DNA of 64,000 nucleotides, from assembly GCF_947496995.1 (NCBI RefSeq), contig NZ_CANMFD010000004.1:1-64000 (forward strand), given 5' to 3'. Made by a program: the position numbers and the translations under genes. Below the pieces are notes generated by a model. It ran no database searches, had not been told where the DNA came from, and worked only from the letters and a program-made list of their open reading frames with translations. How positions within the stretch are numbered: the stretch's first letter is position 1; every line of letters begins with the position of its first letter. Source of the stretch: an uncultured Roseibium sp. Its GTDB lineage: Bacteria > Pseudomonadota > Alphaproteobacteria > Rhizobiales > Stappiaceae. Shown piece after piece: positions 3,678-17,550 of the stretch.

Positions 3678-4727
3678 GGCAAGTCACTCTGCGCTGTAAG
3701 TCAAAATTGCATAAAATTGTTAGTATTCATTTACCCAATTTTAACAGTGATAGAAACCCAAAGTTTGGTTTCCTTAAAAAAAGGTAAACGCACGTTGCCG
3801 AGTTAAAGAGTGTGATGTAGATCACAGGCACAGTTGAAATGCGTATTAATTTTAGTTAATTTTTAATCACACAGGAAGAATAAAGAATATTGTTAACAAA
3901 CTGAAATAAATATAACAACTCTCACTTGGATTAGTTTAATTTCACAATATAATTTTACAAATAAAATCAAAGATATGCTGAATATTCAAGCCACATACAC
4001 TGTAAATATTCAAAACCACATTTGAGATGCGCATGAAATTCTGTGCACCTCCACGCAAAGAAAATATAAACTGTGACAAACAGGCCACAATTGCATAAAT
4101 AACCTTCATTATAAAATAATTTGCAGAATTAATTGGTATTTATAGCTAGATAAATTGTATACATTAGCACTTAATAGCAATTTAAAATGACAAAATCAAA
4201 AAAATACATCATAAATACAATATACAATCTCAAATTTAATGGAAAATGGCGATATATAATAAGCTGATATAGTATATAAATAATTGAATAGAATTTAATC
4301 ATGAAAATCAAAGAATAAATCAGTCAATCGAATCACGTCCTATTGCGCCTCGATATGGGGTAAAAATGCCAATGAACAACCAGAGGTTTTATTGGCGTTG
4401 TGCGCTGATCGCGCGTCGAGTCACGTCAGGCCTCTCGTCAACGGCAAAAAGCGTGGTTCACTCGACGTATTTTACTCCCGGCGCAGTACAACCGCCCCTT
4501 TTTTAAAAGGCAGTTTCCCGCCTCGGGCGAGGGGGCGGGAGTCTCATTCGAGAACAAAAAAACACTAGAAGACAAGGCGAGCCGAAGCATCGGAACGGCC
4601 ACGATTTCAGGGGGCTGAATGCAGTGTGCCGGCCGTCACAGGCCACGACTTGATACCTGTCCTACATGTGGGCTGACCGCGATGAGAAAAGTCGCTGACA
4701 TGTCATGCCAACAGCAGGAGATGTGCC
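3678..4727. other. Long A+T-rich intergenic leader upstream of the adhesin
   Basis: No convincing gene. Roughly 3690-4330 is strikingly A+T-rich against the G+C-rich surroundings (by direct count only 12 of 60 bases are G/C in 4201-4260), after which composition returns to normal. It contains a CRP-type box near the adhesin start. A possible hairpin lies at 4518-4542 (TCCCGCCTC paired with GAGG..GGCGGGA, with a bulge); it has no U-tract and its role is unclear. Such leaders are common in front of surface or horizontally acquired genes and are typical targets of MucR/H-NS-like silencers; a MucR gene lies elsewhere in this window. Confidence 0.7.
3811..3826. promoter_or_regulatory. Near-perfect CRP (cAMP receptor protein) box
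   Basis: TGTGATGTAGATCACA matches the TGTGA-N6-TCACA consensus perfectly on both half sites and differs by one base from the ideal E. coli site. Its centre lies about 140 bp upstream of the adhesin start codon. A CRP-type regulator with a compatible recognition helix is encoded at 14.5 kb. Functional binding is inferred. Confidence 0.6.
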
Positions 4728-4943: not shown

Positions 4944-5138
4944 TTGCAAAGGATCGCTCCTCATTCATCGCGAAAGAGCAAGGCATCCGATACATTCAAC
5001 AGCGGATTCAAACGCTCACGACAACGCATGATCGCTAACAAGGTTCTCGTTCCGGCCGGCAACGGCGGCCGGCGTACCCAAACGGCAGTCTCCGGCGTCT
5101 TTGTCCGTGAATGACTTGCGCACCACATGGAGACTGAA

Positions 5139-5705
5139 ATGCTGAAAAAACTGGAAAGCGGGACGCCCGCGTCTGCCGTGTCACCCCTTGCCGAACCCGC
5201 CCGTCATACGGGAGCGACCCGGATCCTGCACTGGCTTGTCGCCGCGCTCGTGCTGGCGACCTGGCCCCTCGGCTTCCTCATCGACTTCGTCAAGAACGAA
5301 GTGTCCATGGACTTCTACCTGCTGCACGAAAGCTTCGGATTCCTGGTCCTCTGGGTAATGCTTGTGCGTGTGGGAAATATGCTGATCGCCCGCAAGCCGC
5401 CGGCAGAAGGGCCGTTCATCGAACGCTTTGCCGCCACCAGCGTGCACGGTTTGCTGTATCTGTTTCTGATCATCATGCCGATCAGCGGTTTTCTGGCGAC
5501 CAATGCACACGGATTTCCGCTGACATGGTTTGGAGTTCTTCCGATCTGGAGCCCGATCGGAAAATCGCCGGACATTGCCTGGACGCTGTCCGGCATCCAC
5601 GCCTGGAGCGCCTGGATTCTCCTGGGCCTGTTCGCCCTGCATTTCGCCGCGGTGCTGTTCCACCACGTAATCAAACGCGACCAGACGCTTTACAAGATCA
5701 TCTGA
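5139..5705 (+). CDS. Cytochrome b561 family protein
   Basis: Inner-membrane di-heme b-type cytochrome of the bacterial b561/Ni-hydrogenase family, expected to pass electrons between the quinone pool and a periplasmic partner. Four hydrophobic helices are visible, with His residues in the expected places: RILHWLVAAL, LLHESFGFLVLW, SVHGLLYLFLI, and IHAWSAWILLGLFALHFAA. The C-terminus HHVIKRDQTL is typical. An ATG lies 12 nt upstream (5127), but the one at 5139 has GGAG at 6 nt spacing and is preferred (188 residues). It stands alone, followed by a terminator shared with the convergent ABC permease gene. Confidence 0.85.
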   Translation: MLKKLESGTPASAVSPLAEPARHTGATRILHWLVAALVLATWPLGFLIDFVKNEVSMDFYLLHESFGFLVLWVMLVRVGNMLIARKPPAEGPFIERFAATSVHGLLYLFLIIMPISGFLATNAHGFPLTWFGVLPIWSPIGKSPDIAWTLSGIHAWSAWILLGLFALHFAAVLFHHVIKRDQTLYKII

Positions 5706-10739: not shown

Positions 10740-11251
10740 ATTTGCATCGCCTTGAAGGTTTCAGCGCCCCGGAAGGCTTCGGACTCCGAAGCCGGACGCA
10801 GGAAGATCAGGAAGTTTGACGCACTATAGCCCGGCGATCCGCCCGGGGAGTTGAGGCATCTCAAATCTGCCGACGGGGGCATGAAATAGCGCCTTCCAGT
10901 ACCCGTGCAGGGATTTCCTGAGCCGGACCGGCCCGGCAATCCCGCGCAGTGTCGCCCGTCACACGCTTCCGGATGCAAAACGACTAAATCAGCTTGAGCG
11001 GCGATGAGGAACCTCACCGCCGACGCCCTGCAGGAGATCCAACATGTGCCGGCAGCACCGGCTGGAGGCAGGGCGGCTTCCGGAGCGCTCCCCCGGAAGC
11101 AACTCCCTTTGATCTGTCCGTTGCAGAACCGCCATCCCCGAAGCGCAGTATTTCGCGTTTTTTGTTTTGGCATGGACACCACCACGCGGTCTGCGCACCG
11201 AGTTTTCACGGGCAATCTCGAATTGCTTGTTGTCCTGGAAAGGAAGGAAAA
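10740..11251. other. Intergenic region between the export operon and DUF1127 gene
   Basis: 512 bp between divergent genes. Apart from the 19-bp palindrome near the HlyD start I see no gene, RNA or repeat. It must carry both promoters. Confidence 0.5.
10775..10793. promoter_or_regulatory. Perfect 19-bp palindrome in the leader of the export operon
   Basis: GGCTTCGGA-C-TCCGAAGCC has perfect 9-bp arms with a single central base, 36-54 bp upstream of the HlyD start. It could be an operator for a dimeric repressor or an mRNA hairpin; no regulator gene adjoins the operon. Confidence 0.45.
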
Positions 11252-11500
11252 ATGATTTCTGACGACGCCGCATCGGCCGGAAAATATTCCGTCCGTATGG
11301 ACGGCCTGACATCACACACGGCGGATCCGGCCGCCATCTGGCGGAAAATCCTCAATTTCAGGATGTTTTGCCGCAACCGGAAGGTCTACGGGGAGCTTCT
11401 GGATCTGCCGGACCACCTGCTCGATGACATCGGCCTCTCGCGCTCGGATGTCATGGCGGCCAGGTTCGAAAAGTCTCCGGTCAGACCGAAACGCCGATAG
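11252..11500 (+). CDS. DUF1127 domain small protein
   Basis: 82 residues. The open frame extends upstream to 10994, but the ATG at 11252 has a strong purine-rich Shine-Dalgarno (AAGGAAGG) and begins the conserved part, so it is chosen. Residues about 30-70 carry the DUF1127 core: basic helix RMFCRNRKVYGELLDLPDHL followed by LDDIGLSRSDVMAARF. The domain occurs in many small alphaproteobacterial proteins; some bind RNA or influence phosphate uptake and stress responses. A monocistronic unit with a hairpin about 105 bp downstream. Confidence 0.85.
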   Translation: MISDDAASAGKYSVRMDGLTSHTADPAAIWRKILNFRMFCRNRKVYGELLDLPDHLLDDIGLSRSDVMAARFEKSPVRPKRR

Positions 11501-11709: not shown

Positions 11710-13596
11710 TTAAGTCCCGCTACCCGCCGTGAAGGGGTCCAGACGGCCAGCGACACCGGATCGAGGCGCACCGGCCTGCGCCGCTGTCCACAGTGCGACC
11801 TGAACGTTCTGCCGCCTGCCGCGAATGGAGGCGGCTTCTATGCGGGGCGGAACGAAAGTGCACCGGTCCGCCACATCGAGCATGGTCACGGAAAGAGCGA
11901 GAGAAGCGTCAAAGGCCTTTCCGGTTTCCATCAGCCGGCTGGCGACATTCACGCAATCGCCCGTGGCCGCGATCTGCTGCTGGGTTTCGTGTCCGAGACG
12001 CGACAGGACCACGGGACCGTAATGGCCACCGACACGCACATCGCTGATGTCCTCGCCCAGATCCGACGAGGTGATCCACTCCTGAACAGCGGCCACGAGA
12101 TCGAAAGCACACAGGCACGCGTCTGAAGCGTCCCGCCGCCGGGCGTCGGGAATGCCGAAACAGATCATCGCGCCATCGCCCATGAAGTCCAGCACCACGC
12201 CGTGATGCCTTGCCGTTTCATTGACCACAAGCGTGTGGAAGGCTTTCAGCACGTCGCGGGTGCCGCCCGGCCCCAGGCGTTCGGTCAGTCCCGTGTAACC
12301 TGCAAGGTCGATGAACAGGATCGCCACATCCTGCTCCACGGGACGAAGCAGGAAACCGGGATCCTCCGCGATGCGCCTGGCCAGACCTGGCGCCTGAAAC
12401 CGGCTGAGGGCCTCATTGGCCACAGCGAAACGGCTGGCCTGGCGCCTGTCGAAAACTTCACGGACAATCGCGATCAGGACGAGCGGTGGCAGGCTTGCCG
12501 CCACCGGAAGCGCACCATTGAACCAGTACCCCTGCCCATAGGCGAATGTAATGACGACGAGCCAGATGCCGACGAGCAGCAAATAGAGGATTGTCGCCTG
12601 CGCCAGCGGCAGAAAAATCACTGCGCTCAGGGCGACCAGCATGATCGAGACCGAAACGACCGCGTCGATCCGCCGGATCGTGATGTTCCTGACAAGTACC
12701 GATCCGTCCAGAAGGTTGGCGATGCCGGTTGCCAGAACCTCGACACCCGGAAGGATCTGATCGAACGGCGTGCTGAACCGGTCTCCCACGCCTGTCGCCG
12801 TCGCCCCGACCAGCACCAGCCGGTCCTCGAGCGCACCGGCGGCAACATTGCCATCGAATATCGATTGCGCACTCAAGGTTCTGAAGGTGGCGCGGGGGCC
12901 GTAATAGTTGAGCGGCAGATGCCAGGCGTAGTCGAGAGGTTGCAGCCGTTCCTGCAGGCGAATTGCATTGCGCGTAAGCGTGGGATCCGAACCGAGATAG
13001 CGCCCCGTTGCCGAAAGCACGAAGGATGGAACCGGACCGTCCCTGGTGGCAAAGACGAGGGGAATATGACGCGGGGTGCCGCCTGCATCTGTCGAGACGT
13101 TGACAAGCCCCGTGGCGGCCTCGTTGCGCAACGAAGACAGGGGATTGAGCACGTTGTCAGGCTTGGGAAGATAGGAGCCGCCGCTTCGCTCGTCCATGAA
13201 CTGCCCTGCTGCCGCGATAACCGCCGGGAGCGTGCCCAGCGCGGTGGCAAGGTTTTTGGTACCGCCATCCTGGGCATTTCCCGTCAGCAGAATGTCAATC
13301 CCGAGCGACCGTGCTCCGGCCTGTCTGATCTTGTCGATCAGGCGTGCCAGATCGTCCTGTCCGAGCGGATAGCTGCCCGTGCCCGAGACGGTCTCGTCGT
13401 CGATCGCCACAATGACGATGTCATCGGAGACCTTGCGCGGCCCGTTGATCAGAATGCGCAAGTCAAGCAGAACCGTTTCAGCCCGGTCCAGCACGCTCGC
13501 GCGGCCGGAAAGATGGGTCTGCACGAGCCACCCTGTCCAGAGACAGCCGAAAAGGAGCGCAATGAGCGCAAGCCTTATCGGCAGTCTCGATTTCAT
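11710..13596 (-). CDS. CHASE2-domain class III adenylate/guanylate cyclase
   Basis: 628-residue membrane receptor cyclase. Residue 1 follows an ATGA overlap with the stop of the FecR gene; an upstream in-frame start would lie inside that gene. Layout: an N-terminal helix, an extracytoplasmic CHASE2 sensor (about 25-310, with VAIDDETV and GIDILLTG), three helices (about 320-385), and a class III cyclase domain (about 420-600). Metal-binding Asp residues are visible in FIDLAGYT and in FMGDGAMICFG, and the VNVASRL motif supplies the transition-state Asn and Arg. The position where most adenylate cyclases carry a substrate-selecting Lys is Asp here (DFMGDG), so nucleotide specificity cannot be read from sequence. 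The sensor ligand is unknown. Confidence 0.87.
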   Translation of the reverse strand: MKSRLPIRLALIALLFGCLWTGWLVQTHLSGRASVLDRAETVLLDLRILINGPRKVSDDIVIVAIDDETVSGTGSYPLGQDDLARLIDKIRQAGARSLGIDILLTGNAQDGGTKNLATALGTLPAVIAAAGQFMDERSGGSYLPKPDNVLNPLSSLRNEAATGLVNVSTDAGGTPRHIPLVFATRDGPVPSFVLSATGRYLGSDPTLTRNAIRLQERLQPLDYAWHLPLNYYGPRATFRTLSAQSIFDGNVAAGALEDRLVLVGATATGVGDRFSTPFDQILPGVEVLATGIANLLDGSVLVRNITIRRIDAVVSVSIMLVALSAVIFLPLAQATILYLLLVGIWLVVITFAYGQGYWFNGALPVAASLPPLVLIAIVREVFDRRQASRFAVANEALSRFQAPGLARRIAEDPGFLLRPVEQDVAILFIDLAGYTGLTERLGPGGTRDVLKAFHTLVVNETARHHGVVLDFMGDGAMICFGIPDARRRDASDACLCAFDLVAAVQEWITSSDLGEDISDVRVGGHYGPVVLSRLGHETQQQIAATGDCVNVASRLMETGKAFDASLALSVTMLDVADRCTFVPPRIEAASIRGRRQNVQVALWTAAQAGAPRSGVAGRLDPFTAGSGT

Positions 13597-14111
13597 CGCG
13601 CGAAACGGGCAAGCAGCCTGTCGGCTTTTTCCTGCGGCCATGTTTTCACGGTCAAGGGATCATCCTCGGTGACTTCCACACCTTCACCGTCGGACAGGGT
13701 CACCGCCTCGGAGCCGTCCGGCCGGGACACCTCCACCTGTCCGCGAACGACGAACACGGAGGTCATCTCCTGCTTCACGTCCACGACAAAGATCGTGCCC
13801 CGAACTGCGGCAATTGCATGCGGGGTGAGGATTTGAAAAGGCCCGCTGTCCGGCTCAACCTCGATGAGGACAGCATCCTCGGTCAGCTGGACCGCTCCGG
13901 GGCGAACCTGTCCCGGTGCATTTTCAACCGCAATCTCGGCGGCCGCTTCCGCTTCGAACACCAGCCCGTTCGCGCACTGGTAAACGATCCTGGGCGGATT
14001 GGGCGCATCGGTCTTGACGCAGCCGTTGACGTCCTGAGCCGCGCTTTGCACACAGGCAGCAGCCAGGAACAGGGCTGCCGTTAAAAATGTTTTTATGCGT
14101 ATAGTCGACAT
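13593..14111 (-). CDS. Secreted FecR-domain protein, partner of the CHASE2 cyclase
   Basis: 172 residues with a clean Sec signal (MSTIRIKTFLTAALFLAAAC...SAAQ) followed by a FecR-type beta-rich domain: TPHAIAAVRGTIFVVDV, TSVFVVRGQVEVS and VTLSDGEGVEV. Unlike regulatory FecR proteins of iron uptake it has no membrane-spanning anti-sigma N-terminus, so it should be periplasmic (a Cys lies close to the signal end, but the site is not a clear lipobox). The frame opens further upstream, but this ATG begins the signal peptide. Its stop overlaps the cyclase start as ATGA, indicating translational coupling and suggesting that it supplies a periplasmic signal to the CHASE2 domain. FecR/CHASE2-cyclase neighbours recur in proteobacteria. 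Confidence 0.8.
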   Translation of the reverse strand: MSTIRIKTFLTAALFLAAACVQSAAQDVNGCVKTDAPNPPRIVYQCANGLVFEAEAAAEIAVENAPGQVRPGAVQLTEDAVLIEVEPDSGPFQILTPHAIAAVRGTIFVVDVKQEMTSVFVVRGQVEVSRPDGSEAVTLSDGEGVEVTEDDPLTVKTWPQEKADRLLARFAR

Positions 14112-14504
14112 GGGTTTCTCAATACGGTTCTGGCAATTAAGTCTTTTCATCTGGCGAATTTTTGGCCTTGATAGGACCACGACCTCACAAATCAGACTGA
14201 ATTATCGCGGCAAGCGACCAGGAGACGACCGGACATGTGCCAAACGAACGTCCTGCCTGGCCCCGGAAGCATTGCCACAGCAAATCAAAACCGCTTTTAT
14301 CACGCTTTGAGAGCGGCAGGCGTTTATCCGCAAGCAGCGTTCCGGAGTGTCGGAAAACAGACCTTTTCCGGCACACGAGCGCAGCTTGTTCGGAACAAAC
14401 TCAATCCTGCCCCTTCAATCTTTTTTACAAGGGTAAGTTCTAAAACACCTGTAACGTTGTAGCCAGCGTTGTACATCGAGAAAAATGTGAAGAAAGTGGA
14501 GCGG
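14112..14504. other. Divergent control region between FecR-cyclase operon and CRP-type gene
   Basis: 393 bp without a supported gene. Two adjacent palindromes are visible: CGGAAAA-CAGACC-TTTTCCG at 14351-14370 and TTGTTC-G-GAACAA at 14386-14398, the second about 110 bp before the regulator start. Either may be an operator. A 75-codon frame from 14235 has AGGAG at a poor 11-nt spacing and no recognisable content, so it is not called. Confidence 0.45.
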
Positions 14505-15206
14505 ATGACAGCAGACGAGGCCGTAAACAAGGAAAAGCTTTTGGGAAAAAGCTTTGTCTTTGAAGCGCTTGACGAACAGAGCCGGCGGGACCTGACCGCC
14601 TTCGCCCATGTCAAACGCTATTCTGCCGGTGAAACCGTCTTCGATATGGGAACGCCCGGCCAGAGCATGATGGCCATCGCCGAAGGCACCGTGCGCGTCG
14701 CCATGCCGACGCCGAACGCTCGTGACGTGACACTGGCGGAGCTGACAACGGGGGACGTCTTCGGAGAAATAGCCCTGCTGGATGGCGGTGAACGGTCGGC
14801 CAATGTACGCGCCCTGACCAATTGCACCCTGGTGGTGCTCGAAAGACGCGCCTTGCTGGAAGTCCTGCAACGCAATCCGGCATTTTCGATCCGCATCATT
14901 GAACTTTTGTGCAAACGGGTCCGGCGCTCCGACGAGCGGATGATGGAAATCGCCTTCCTCGGATTGCCCTCGCGCCTCGCCCGGCTGCTGCTGCGCATAA
15001 CCGTGGCCGCGCCAGGAAGCGAGGAGAAACCCCTGACGAAATTGTCGCTGTCCCAGTCCGAAATGGCCTCCATGATCGGCAACACGAGGGAAAACGTGAA
15101 CCGCTGCCTGCGCAAATGGCAGAAGGCAGACCTTGTGGACCTGAAGGAAGGCTGGCTCATCCTGCGGGACCGGGAAGGCCTGGAGACAATAGCCGAGGGC
15201 GAGTAG
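14505..15206 (+). CDS. CRP/FNR-family transcription regulator (CRP-like)
   Basis: 233 residues. The N-terminal cNMP-binding beta-roll (about 25-130) keeps GDVFGEIALL and ERSANVRA, matching the GE(x)L...RSA phosphate-binding cassette of cAMP receptor proteins. There is no N-terminal Cys cluster as in FNR. The C-terminal winged helix (about 160-225) has SQSEMASMIGNTRENVNRCL, with R-E-x-V-x-R as in the CRP recognition helix that reads TGTGA. The ATG at 14505 is preceded by GGAG at a short 3-nt spacing; GTG or TTG starts slightly upstream are possible. Divergent from the FecR-cyclase operon, so it may be the receiver of that cyclase's product (inference). Confidence 0.85.
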   Translation: MTADEAVNKEKLLGKSFVFEALDEQSRRDLTAFAHVKRYSAGETVFDMGTPGQSMMAIAEGTVRVAMPTPNARDVTLAELTTGDVFGEIALLDGGERSANVRALTNCTLVVLERRALLEVLQRNPAFSIRIIELLCKRVRRSDERMMEIAFLGLPSRLARLLLRITVAAPGSEEKPLTKLSLSQSEMASMIGNTRENVNRCLRKWQKADLVDLKEGWLILRDREGLETIAEGE

Positions 15207-15408
15207 TTCGGCCCGAACCTCGGGCAGGATCGTGTGAACACGGAAAACGCGCCGGTCCTCAGGGGGCAGGCAACGGATTTCCCGGCAAGATTTTCAGGGC
15301 CTCGACCGTGTGGTGTTGCGCGTCACATGTGCTGCCAGGGGGGCAAACCTAAGTATTGGTTATCGGCGGAAACGATTTCGCCGGGACCAACACAAAGGCA
15401 AAATCCTG

Positions 15409-15753
15409 ATGTTCAAGAAAGCAATTCTCACCACTTTGGCGATCGTCGGCCTGGCGGCGGCTGTGTCCACGACCTCCGCATTCGCCGGAAGCCATGGTCA
15501 CAAAGGCGGCTACCACCACAAGAACCACGGGTATCATCACAAGAACCACGGCTACCACCACAAGAACCGCGGTTTCCGCCACAATAACTACTGGTACCGC
15601 CACAATACCTACAAGGTTCAGCGTGGCAACAACTGGCAGCAGCATGTGGCCTGGTGTTCCGACCGGTACAGATCCTACCGCGCCCAGAACAACACTTTCC
15701 AGCCATTCAAAGGCCAGCGCAGGCTGTGCAGCTCCCCCTACTTCAAGGGCTGA
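15409..15753 (+). CDS. BA14K-family secreted protein with His-rich repeats
   Basis: 114 residues: a signal peptide ([20 protein letters not shown]...AFA), a His/Lys/Asn/Tyr-rich segment with three YHHKNHG-type heptads (about residues 35-55), and the C-terminal BA14K signature [19 protein letters not shown] ending in RRLC. BA14K proteins of Brucella and relatives are immunoreactive, lectin-like envelope proteins of unclear function. The two conserved Cys probably form a disulfide. The His block suggests metal binding. The open frame extends upstream, but this ATG starts the signal peptide; the Shine-Dalgarno is weak. Followed by a strong terminator, so monocistronic. Confidence 0.85.
15511..15573 (+). 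repeat. Three tandem 21-bp repeats encoding YHHKNHG
   Basis: Units at 15511, 15532 and 15553 encode [14 protein letters not shown] and YHHKNRG, differing only at a few silent sites and one Arg. Exact tandem spacing makes copy-number variation by slippage likely. Confidence 0.85.
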
Positions 15754-15978: not shown

Positions 15979-17550
15979 CTAAATCTCGTGTTTCTCGAGG
16001 AACGCGCCGATGGCATTCAGGCAGACCTGCCATGCAGGTTCCTGGTCAACCAGAATATGGTTGTGACTTTCCAGCGGCACGAATTGCGCGCCCGGGATGC
16101 CCGAGGCAACCGCCCGGCCCTGGTCCAGCGGGATCCGCTGGTCATGCCTTGAATGCAGAACGATGGTCGGTGCCCGTACATCCGCCAGCCGGTGGCGGAC
16201 ATCGATATGGCCGAAGGCGTCCTGAAAGCGGGCTGCATTTCGCGGCGATGTTGTCAGGCGCTGAAATTCGTCGAACCAGGCCAGCGTTTCCGCACTCGCC
16301 TCGGGCATGAAGGTCTGCGAGAAGATATGCCGGTAGGCGGGATTGTCGGTTCCCCACCCAAGCTCTGTCAGGGTCAGCACCGCTTCGCGCCTTGCCTGTT
16401 CTTCCGGGCTGGCAAGATGCCGCCAACCGGCCGCATAGCCACCAATCAGGATCAGCCCGGACACACGATGCGGATGCCGCACGGCATATTCGATCGAAAC
16501 CGCGCATCCCTGGGAAATACCGATCAGGGGAAAGCGCTCCAGTCCAAGCGTATCGGCCACTGCCTCAAGGTCCTCCACGAAGGCCTCGAAGCTCAGATCC
16601 TTCACGTCCCAGTCGGACAGGCCGCAGCCGCGCTCGTCGTAGCGGATGAAGGTGCGGCGGCGGGCTATCTCGGCGAAGCTCCGCCCCCAGATCGGGCTCG
16701 ACCAGTCGAATTCAAGGTGGTTGAGCCAGTTCGCGGCTTTCAGCACCGGCGCCCCGGAGCCGATGCTCGCAAAGGCAATCTTCGTACCGTCAGCGACCTC
16801 GCAGAAGCCGATGCGCTGCGCCCGCAAGGCCCGCGCCCGCGCCTTCCTGACCCGGTTCTGGGCATCCTGCGTTCTTGTTTCATAAATCCCGGTTTCGGCT
16901 GGCTTCGCGCGCGCCTCTCCCGATCTCTCGGAGCTCCTGGCAGCGTTCTGTCTGGCAACCGACTGCCGATGGGCGTCCGCGTCCTCGGGGTCGGCTTCCG
17001 CCCACAGCCGCATCCACTTTCTGGCCGCGATGGAGCCGGTGTCGGGATGGGTTGCCAGCCGTTTCAGAACTTCCACCTGTGCGGCCCGGGCGTCCTCCCG
17101 TTCAGCCGTCAGCCAGGCGTCGAACGTGTCGTCACCGGCACCGTCCAACCCATCAAGCAACACCTGTTCCAGCCGGTGCGCCATCTCTTCCAGGTCCTCG
17201 ACCGCGGGCGGATGGTCCCTGTCGCGCAATCTTGCATGAATATCGGTGATGTCGATGCGAATGCCGCCGGGCACGAACTGCACCCGCTCACGGTCGGCAA
17301 CGATCCTGACCTCGTCCGGACCGTCGACAGTCTTGCGCAGCTTGCTGAGCGCCCAGCGCAGCGCCGCCTTGGGATCGTCGGGAATATCCCAGAACAGTTC
17401 GCAAAGACGCTCCCTGCGATGCGGCCGCCCGGTGGCGATCAGAAAGGCCAGCAGCGCCCTCGCCTTGCGCGAAGCGGGCAAGGAGACCTCCTCGCCCGAG
17501 GACAGAACCCGCAGTTCACCCAGGAGAGAGATCTCAAGGTCCTGAGCCAT
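15979..17550 (-). CDS. SARP/BTAD-type DNA-binding regulator fused to an alpha/beta hydrolase
   Basis: 523 residues in three parts. Residues 1-95 form an OmpR/SARP-like winged helix (SLLGELRVLSSGEEVSLPAS, then LLAFLIATG and WALSKLRKTV). Residues about 100-215 are a helical region in the place of a bacterial transcriptional activation domain. After an Arg/Ala-rich linker, residues about 245-523 are an alpha/beta hydrolase: nucleophile elbow GISQG with Ser346, RYDERGCGLSDWD, an acidic residue in VLHSRHDQRIP, and a His in ESHNHIL. Thus a complete catalytic triad appears present. It may be a regulator whose hydrolase-like domain senses or processes a small ester or lactone. Target genes are unknown; it is transcribed alone. 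Confidence 0.82.
   Translation of the reverse strand: MAQDLEISLLGELRVLSSGEEVSLPASRKARALLAFLIATGRPHRRERLCELFWDIPDDPKAALRWALSKLRKTVDGPDEVRIVADRERVQFVPGGIRIDITDIHARLRDRDHPPAVEDLEEMAHRLEQVLLDGLDGAGDDTFDAWLTAEREDARAAQVEVLKRLATHPDTGSIAARKWMRLWAEADPEDADAHRQSVARQNAARSSERSGEARAKPAETGIYETRTQDAQNRVRKARARALRAQRIGFCEVADGTKIAFASIGSGAPVLKAANWLNHLEFDWSSPIWGRSFAEIARRRTFIRYDERGCGLSDWDVKDLSFEAFVEDLEAVADTLGLERFPLIGISQGCAVSIEYAVRHPHRVSGLILIGGYAAGWRHLASPEEQARREAVLTLTELGWGTDNPAYRHIFSQTFMPEASAETLAWFDEFQRLTTSPRNAARFQDAFGHIDVRHRLADVRAPTIVLHSRHDQRIPLDQGRAVASGIPGAQFVPLESHNHILVDQEPAWQVCLNAIGAFLEKHEI

Follow-up and report, generated by a model that had tools for sequence, protein, structure and literature searches.

The analysed window, a 64,000-nucleotide stretch from an uncultured Roseibium sp. 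(assembly GCF_947496995.1, contig NZ_CANMFD010000004.1, positions 1 to 64,000), carries three adjacent genes for a secreted FecR-domain protein, a CHASE2 membrane cyclase and a CRP-type regulator. We read these genes, at a probability of about 0.77, as a portable envelope-signalling cassette made up of a FecR-CHASE2 input, a cyclase, a CRP receiver and neighbouring target genes. The gene association, the residues and the site architecture were observed, and from them we infer the cyclase activity, the ligand, the binding and the signal. According to the proposed mechanism, the CHASE2 ectodomain would form a periplasmic input together with the secreted FecR protein, the cytoplasmic class III domain (catalytic residues recognised by alignment) would make a cyclic nucleotide, and the neighbouring CRP protein (pocket recognised by alignment) would bind it. 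The regulator would then bind class II-like sites and activate neighbouring envelope genes (BA14K, cytochrome b561 or LysM), which in the window would be the BA14K gene and probably a DUF1127 gene and b561. A single DNA stretch would then hold the sensor, the synthase, the receiver and some of the output genes; adjacent genes often have matching receiver-binding sites, and the cassette seems to carry a share of its output along with it.

Composition and distribution of the cassette

The FecR-domain protein (P0001, positions 13593 to 14111, minus strand, 172 residues) matched Pfam FecR with an expectation value (E) of 8.9e-9 and has a signal-like N-terminus, as judged by eye. The CHASE2 membrane class III nucleotidyl cyclase (P0003, 11710 to 13596, minus strand, 628 residues) matched Pfam CHASE2 (E 5.7e-44) and Guanylate_cyc (E 2.9e-16, 60 bits), and the CRP-type regulator (P0002, 14505 to 15206, plus strand, with an alternative TTG start upstream at 14469) matched cNMP_binding (E 8e-23) and HTH_Crp_2 (E 2.6e-16); all five domains exceed their cut-offs. 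The fecR stop and the cyclase start overlap as ATGA at positions 13593 to 13596. In the alignments, the conserved cysteines of the FecR protein, Cys31 and Cys46, were found in 64/69 and 69/69 sequences, respectively. The cyclase motifs FIDLAGYT, GDG and GDCVNVASR are conserved, and the Asp pair with which class III enzymes bind metal and the Asn/Arg motif which acts on their transition state are retained in the aligned rows shown, as in a class III cyclase. Alignment of the regulator with E. coli CRP and with Clr of Sinorhizobium meliloti showed the phosphate cassette G-E...R-S of CRP proteins that respond to cyclic nucleoside monophosphates, and the R/E/R of the E. coli CRP recognition helix is also present.

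The loci of the family genomes were fetched and their genes were marked with profiles built from those loci. The cyclase was matched in 31 of 87 family genomes, at 49% identity or more in 28 (the close cyclases) and at 34-35% in three from genus g3; the other 56 had no match at E 1e-30. A regulator at least 67% identical was found in 28 of the 87 genomes, and comparison of the listings showed that these are the same 28. It is the divergent neighbour of the cyclase at 27 of the 29 close loci, the exceptions being G071, where the two lie 680 kb apart, and the second copy in G044, 26 kb away. One further close regulator (L087, genome G030) had no cyclase alongside in the 9 kb read. The ATGA overlap is preserved in 29/29 close loci, and the divergent arrangement of the window recurs at the three distant g3 loci. 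In one locus (L072, 8060 to 11857) the cyclase is tandemly duplicated within the cassette. At two others (L082 and L154) the gene pairs look otherwise normal and the cyclase frame is interrupted, possibly by sequencing error or decay; L082 keeps the ATGA overlap and its frame breaks further on.

Plasmids and other families gave a similar picture for the FecR gene. Fifteen plasmid records matched the cyclase, and the ten which covered at least 80% of the query were read: FecR was upstream in 10/10 and CRP was present in 4/10, divergent in the two from Leisingera and in same-strand operons in those from Paroceanicella and Methylobacterium. The order-level search matched the cyclase in 35 of 397 genomes, eight of them from the window's own family, and in the 27 from outside it FecR was upstream in all 27 and CRP adjacent in four. 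At class level, eight of 385 genomes matched, six of them new, and the seven loci had FecR in 7/7 and CRP in 1/7. FecR thus adjoins cyclases of this protein family at 76/76 loci examined (69/69 and 7/7) and CRP does so at a subset, which makes FecR-CHASE2-cyclase the fixed core and the regulator a frequent third member, linked in either a divergent or an operon arrangement. On the cyclase tree the divergent state required 5 changes (shuffled mean 19.8) and the unlinked state 8 (20.5), so that both are clustered, while the four operon cases are not (4 changes, shuffled mean 3.9). The clades of the regulator tree match broadly and are separate from Clr, with a long-branch warning from the tool.

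The initial annotation had proposed a secreted FecR protein coupled by ATGA to a CHASE2 cyclase and a divergent regulator with an intact cAMP-cassette motif and a CRP-like recognition helix. The open reading frames, the coordinates, the Pfam matches, the 29/29 overlap and the alignment with E. coli CRP bear this out. It had also suggested that sensor, synthase and receiver may act as one unit whose periplasmic signal enters through FecR, and had named a comparison of neighbourhoods in advance among the tests that could refute this; the genes proved to be co-conserved (the same 28/87 genomes, adjacent at 27/29 loci) and to recur, in both divergent and operon arrangements, on plasmids and outside the family, so that the comparative part of the suggestion holds. 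The local CRP-type sites before neighbouring genes, described below, lend the one-unit idea further support, while entry of the signal through FecR stays a suggestion. The FecR-cyclase-CRP cassette is, on these sequence comparisons, a real and mobile unit, of an already known kind and predicted to be functional.

Predicted regulator sites and neighbouring genes

Comparison of the neighbouring genes showed a cytochrome b561 gene in 20/27 loci and a gene for a BA14K-like small secreted protein after crp, and the promoters of both have GTG-N8-CAC sites in common, with the core GTGTYGCGCGTCACA. For 14 BA14K genes this site is the best upstream canonical match (single-sequence shuffle p 0.003 to 0.06). 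A matrix scan of 32 loci found a site centred 87-96 nucleotides upstream of 17/17 close BA14K genes (16 loci) and, for b561, a site at most 500 nucleotides upstream at 11/21 loci. A TA lies 21-22 nucleotides after the 16-mer at 11/11 b561 sites (chance 0.09 per site) and, by eye, in the 17 BA14K and two LysM promoters. In class II CRP promoters the CRP site is centred about 41.5 nucleotides before the transcription start, and the TA spacing of the predicted sites would fit such promoters.

In the window, the predicted CRP site GGTGTTGCGCGTCACA (15312 to 15327, plus strand), with the TA of a -10-like element 22 nucleotides downstream, lies before the gene for the BA14K-like protein (15409 to 15753, plus strand), which is a predicted direct target. 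The predicted site AGTGTCGCCCGTCACA (10948 to 10963, plus strand) lies beyond the 3' end of the cyclase gene and is the genome's second-best match to the 15-base core; its -10-like TAAATC is on the side of the gene for a DUF1127 small protein (11252 to 11500, plus strand), a possible target, and not on the hlyD side. A third predicted site, TGTGCCGGCCGTCACA (4625 to 4640, plus strand), matches 9/10 positions, has CTACAT at the usual spacing and lies about 490 nucleotides before the cytochrome b561 gene (5127 to 5705, plus strand), outside the stretch covered by the matrix scan. This b561 gene is about 6 kb from the cyclase, beyond ABC-transporter genes, and in many relatives it is directly convergent with the cyclase. 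A perfect TGTGA-N6-TCACA at 3811-3826 has no obvious gene there and is not tied to the cassette. At 15979-17550 an alpha/beta hydrolase follows a weak, below-cut-off Trans_reg_C-like N-terminal part.

Sites were also found in other settings. A perfect TGTGA-N6-TCACA, outside the training set, lies between crp and a LysM-annotated gene (LysM Pfam just below its cut-off) on the Leisingera plasmids, whose two near-identical loci count as one case, and the g3 loci L084-L086 have perfect sites at both cassette ends. In G071 crp and the cyclase are far apart, and each half has its own neighbouring BA14K gene with a site.

The specificity of the core was then compared among genomes. In the host genome, matches with at most one mismatch occur only at 15313-15327, which helped to shape the core, and at 10949-10963, which did not, and both flank the cassette. 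Across the 87 genomes the exact degenerate core gave 27 sites in 16/28 close-cassette genomes and 4 sites in 4/59 others (three of the 59 hold a distant cassette), while the reversed-core control gave 1. Exclusion of the core-shaping sites left 17 sites in 11/28 genomes and 4 in 4/59 (Fisher p 0.0004), and seven of the 17 are within 1 kb of a cassette gene. GTG-N8-CAC sites of at least 8/10 within 1.3 kb of the cyclase end were found at 21/39 CRP-linked and 1/34 unlinked cassettes (p 8e-7), the expected rate being about 8%. With the matrix, the close and Leisingera loci (525 kb) gave 49 hits, 17 of which are the BA14K sites, and 3 once shuffled; the unlinked-cassette loci (299 kb) gave 1 hit and the rhizobial clr loci (795 kb) gave 28.

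The crp-fecR spacer is 112-124 nucleotides long in 21 of 27 close loci, 192 and 253 nucleotides in two, and 390-656 nucleotides in the four-locus subclade of the window, to which this long spacer is specific. The two palindromes seen initially in the shared control region (14347-14374 and 14383-14401) do exist in that long spacer, but they are not a general feature of the cassette, and we rejected them as CRP sites, since they are confined to four loci and lack GTG-N8-CAC. At most 110 nucleotides before crp, the canonical TGTGA-N6-TCACA was found at 9/10 only in L075-L077 and at 8/10 in L059, and not in the window, where the lack of such a site in the spacer leaves autoregulation unsupported. 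A scan of 14000-14600 for sigma-70 promoters and terminators found nothing. A conserved block, CGTTGTANCCANCGTTGTAC (CGTTGTAGCCAGCGTTGTAC), lies at 14455 to 14474 on the plus strand, 30 nucleotides before the crp start, and forms the near-direct repeat CGTTGTA-N5-CGTTGTA. It recurs 27-32 nucleotides before the regulator start in 20 of the 27 close loci (shuffle p <=0.02 each; the scored clade was excluded from training and the search was seeded with the consensus), and in L075-L077 it overlaps the 9/10 CRP site, an overlap not present in the window. The block was rejected as a genome-wide regulon motif: its exact form occurs in the host genome only at the window locus, and one further match (3 mismatches) was found, compared with 9 for the reversed control.

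Signal input, messenger and rival explanations

The sensor domain CHASE2 occurs widely, and its ligands are described as unknown (PMC5192318); FecR proteins encoded next to it have seldom been studied as partners. A FecR gene was found within 3 kb of 18 of 44 CHASE2 places (17 genomes), of which five belong to the window's cyclase family; FecR is thus found beside CHASE2 proteins with varied outputs, and the pairing is wider than this family. In the host genome another FecR gene immediately precedes a CHASE2-GGDEF-EAL gene (C2:608050-609954; L090 4158-8216), the same input pair with a cyclic di-GMP output. Other CHASE2 cyclases break the FecR rule: the third CHASE2 protein of the host (C2:514310-515537; L089 5679-8296), a cyclase, has no FecR match. 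Its gene overlaps by 4 nucleotides an upstream gene for a secreted-looking protein of 228 residues with no Pfam match, and caspase-like and SEL1-like genes were seen by eye further upstream. A FecI/FecR-type sigma system combines a FecR protein that has a cytoplasmic anti-sigma part with a fecI-type sigma gene in the vicinity. The window does not show this make-up: P0001 has the FecR domain alone above cut-off, and no sigma gene was seen by eye among the neighbour families common to at least 6/27 loci.

Several observations weigh against the cassette reading. No linked CRP was found at 34 of the 73 cassettes compared, six of the 27 close loci (L057, L069, L079-L081 and L083) lack sites up to 1.3 kb from each end, the three weaker BA14K-like genes of L075-L077 have no site of their own, and no GTG-N8-CAC site was found in the crp-fecR spacer of the window. 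In the host genome the core with at most two mismatches occurs at 30 places, against 22 for the reversed control, and ten of the 27 exact core sites of the cassette genomes lie away from the cassette (in G011, G030, G033 and G055, and six in G044). The core and the weight matrix were shaped on BA14K sites, which makes the BA14K scores circular, and the loci are related, so that counts and p values are not independent. In S. meliloti, a mutant in the FecR gene smc02177 still perceived the plant signal (PMC5498481). The six exact GTGTCGCGCGTCACA copies of G044 (C1:578679-680196) lie within about 100 kb, far from the cassette, and none of the three sites printed with their surroundings precedes a BA14K gene.

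Some of these points would suit other explanations. The dispensability of SMc02177 for perception of the plant signal favours a reading in which FecR, instead of taking in the signal, serves CHASE2 as a structural or folding partner, and the translational coupling of fecR to the cyclase is compatible with a stoichiometric complex either way. However, the SMc02177 gene is convergent and only distantly similar to the window FecR, and FecR adjoins the cyclase at every locus examined, with FecR genes also beside CHASE2 proteins that have other outputs (among the 18/44 places given above, and in PMC5192318); we regard a purely structural role as a real possibility, though one short of even odds. 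The ten sites away from cassettes would fit flanking sites that serve a housekeeping CRP-like protein (host C1:1111160) instead of the cassette regulator. CRP sites are often shared, and a regulator match at E 1e-15 or better was found in 83 of the 87 family genomes, in many of them at about 33% identity. Yet cassette genomes are enriched in the exact core even when shaping sites are excluded, cassettes without CRP mostly have no flanking sites, and sites adjoin crp even when it lies apart from the cyclase, so that this explanation appears improbable. A degenerate cyclase domain, with the linkage an inherited synteny without cyclic-nucleotide function, would account for the non-canonical base-reading residues described below and for the interrupted frames of L082 and L154, but we consider it very improbable, since the aligned rows shown retain the Asn/Arg motif and the Asp pair for metal binding, and the cassette is found again on plasmids and outside the family, in divergent as well as rearranged operon form.

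The identity of the messenger was approached through the residues that read the base. Those of the cyclase are D470 and A543; Asp470 occupies the position of the adenylate-cyclase Lys and aligns with the Glu of 2w01, the best solved relative of the catalytic domain. The pair is therefore neither that of an adenylate cyclase proper (Lys plus Asp/Thr/Ser) nor that of a guanylate cyclase proper (Glu plus Cys/Gly/Ser), and the messenger could be cyclic AMP (cAMP), cyclic GMP (cGMP) or both. The replacement of the substrate-selecting Lys by Asp, from which the initial annotation had suggested that the product might not be cAMP, was confirmed, but it is not a special sign of this enzyme: the Lys was missing in 68/68 aligned family members, window included, with Asp in 28/68 and Ser, Gly, Asn, Thr, Ala, His or Gln in others. 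Some Lys-less cyclases produce cAMP. In the regulator, the base-reading pair of the C-helix is S142-D143 (T127-S128 in E. coli CRP and T140-T141 in Clr), and this S-D pair is preserved in 33/33 close regulators.

These residues would agree with a cassette of the same design in which a receptor with a C-helix Asp reads cGMP, or a mixture, as the messenger, and in Ma1120 guanylate-cyclase residues in place of Lys and Asp raised guanylate-cyclase and lowered adenylate-cyclase activity (PMC4215837). Both T140 and T141 of Clr contact cAMP as well as cGMP, T141 through the N2-amine of cGMP (PMC10127613), so that the position of the receptor Asp speaks on both sides. Against cGMP, Asp differs from the Glu known from guanylate cyclases, and the adenine N6-amine could be accepted by a carboxylate as well. 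The Asp residues of cyclase and receptor were checked for covariation, and none was seen: within the S-D receptor clade the cyclase residue is also Asn (two loci) or Ser (two loci). The two Asp residues fit guanine yet do not covary, and we take cGMP to be a possible but somewhat unlikely product. A possible precedent for the C-helix Asp in cGMP channels was not found in the literature searched.

A bolder version of the cassette reading would make it a private, transferable non-cAMP channel, in which the S-D receptor reads cGMP or some other cyclic nucleotide made by the Lys-less cyclase, free of crosstalk with the housekeeping CRP and the other nine cyclases, FecR-CHASE2 is an interchangeable envelope sensor, and outputs are gained through one class II CRP site outside either cassette end. 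The profile search of the host genome gave 10 Guanylate_cyc, 10 cNMP_binding and 3 CHASE2 matches, so such a circuit would need insulation from the others, and we hold this version to be unlikely. A genome with ten class III cyclase matches is a natural test of messenger insulation, and the cassette is likewise one of whether Asp can stand in for Glu or Lys in base choice. As the cassette has a constant FecR partner, a receptor of its own and the predicted reporters BA14K and b561, a single promoter fusion would be enough to test what the input is.

Comparison with known systems

Secreted FecR proteins beside CHASE2 are found in other settings. The Burkholderia BiofilmReg operon and PA4035-type FecR genes likewise place a secreted FecR-domain protein directly upstream of a CHASE2 membrane protein, with LysM involved, but the output is a histidine kinase and a response regulator, unlike the cyclase and CRP of the window (PMC5192318). 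In Campylobacterota a CHASE2 adenylate cyclase is likewise clustered with a FecR-domain protein and spread by transfer; that cluster differs in having phosphodiesterase and TPR genes, and the part of the source available does not mention an adjacent CRP (PMC9239204). Rhodospirillum centenum clusters a CRP homologue with cyclase-subunit genes (cgrA-gcyB-gcyC), and CgrA-cGMP activates the cyclase genes and itself through TGTGA-N6-TCACA; it differs in that cGMP was established by experiment, in a large regulon of 295 chromatin immunoprecipitation peaks, and in a FecR-CHASE2 input not being part of the description seen (PMC4681086).

The literature searched did not describe a FecR gene, a CHASE2 cyclase gene and a CRP gene as such a cassette, and the S. 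meliloti cluster clr-cyaD1-smc02177-smc02178 is nearest, with a CHASE2 cyclase beside a CRP-type regulator dependent on cyclic nucleotides and a FecR-domain gene; smc02177 and smc02178 are activated through Clr and cyclases (PMC5498481, PMC13001267, PMC10127613). CyaD1, with Lys-Thr at its base-reading positions, is about 26% identical over 367 aligned residues and Clr about 31%, clr runs in the same direction as cyaD1, the FecR gene has a convergent orientation and is uncoupled, unlike in the window, and the close CRP clade stands apart from Clr in the tree, with the long-branch warning given above; with this identity, gene order and tree position the two sets are not orthologous by our criteria. 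By sequence, gene order and predicted base-reading residues, the cassette is distinct from the S. meliloti system. Cassettes of this sort are already known from S. meliloti and R. centenum, and the new element is the locally encoded predicted targets.

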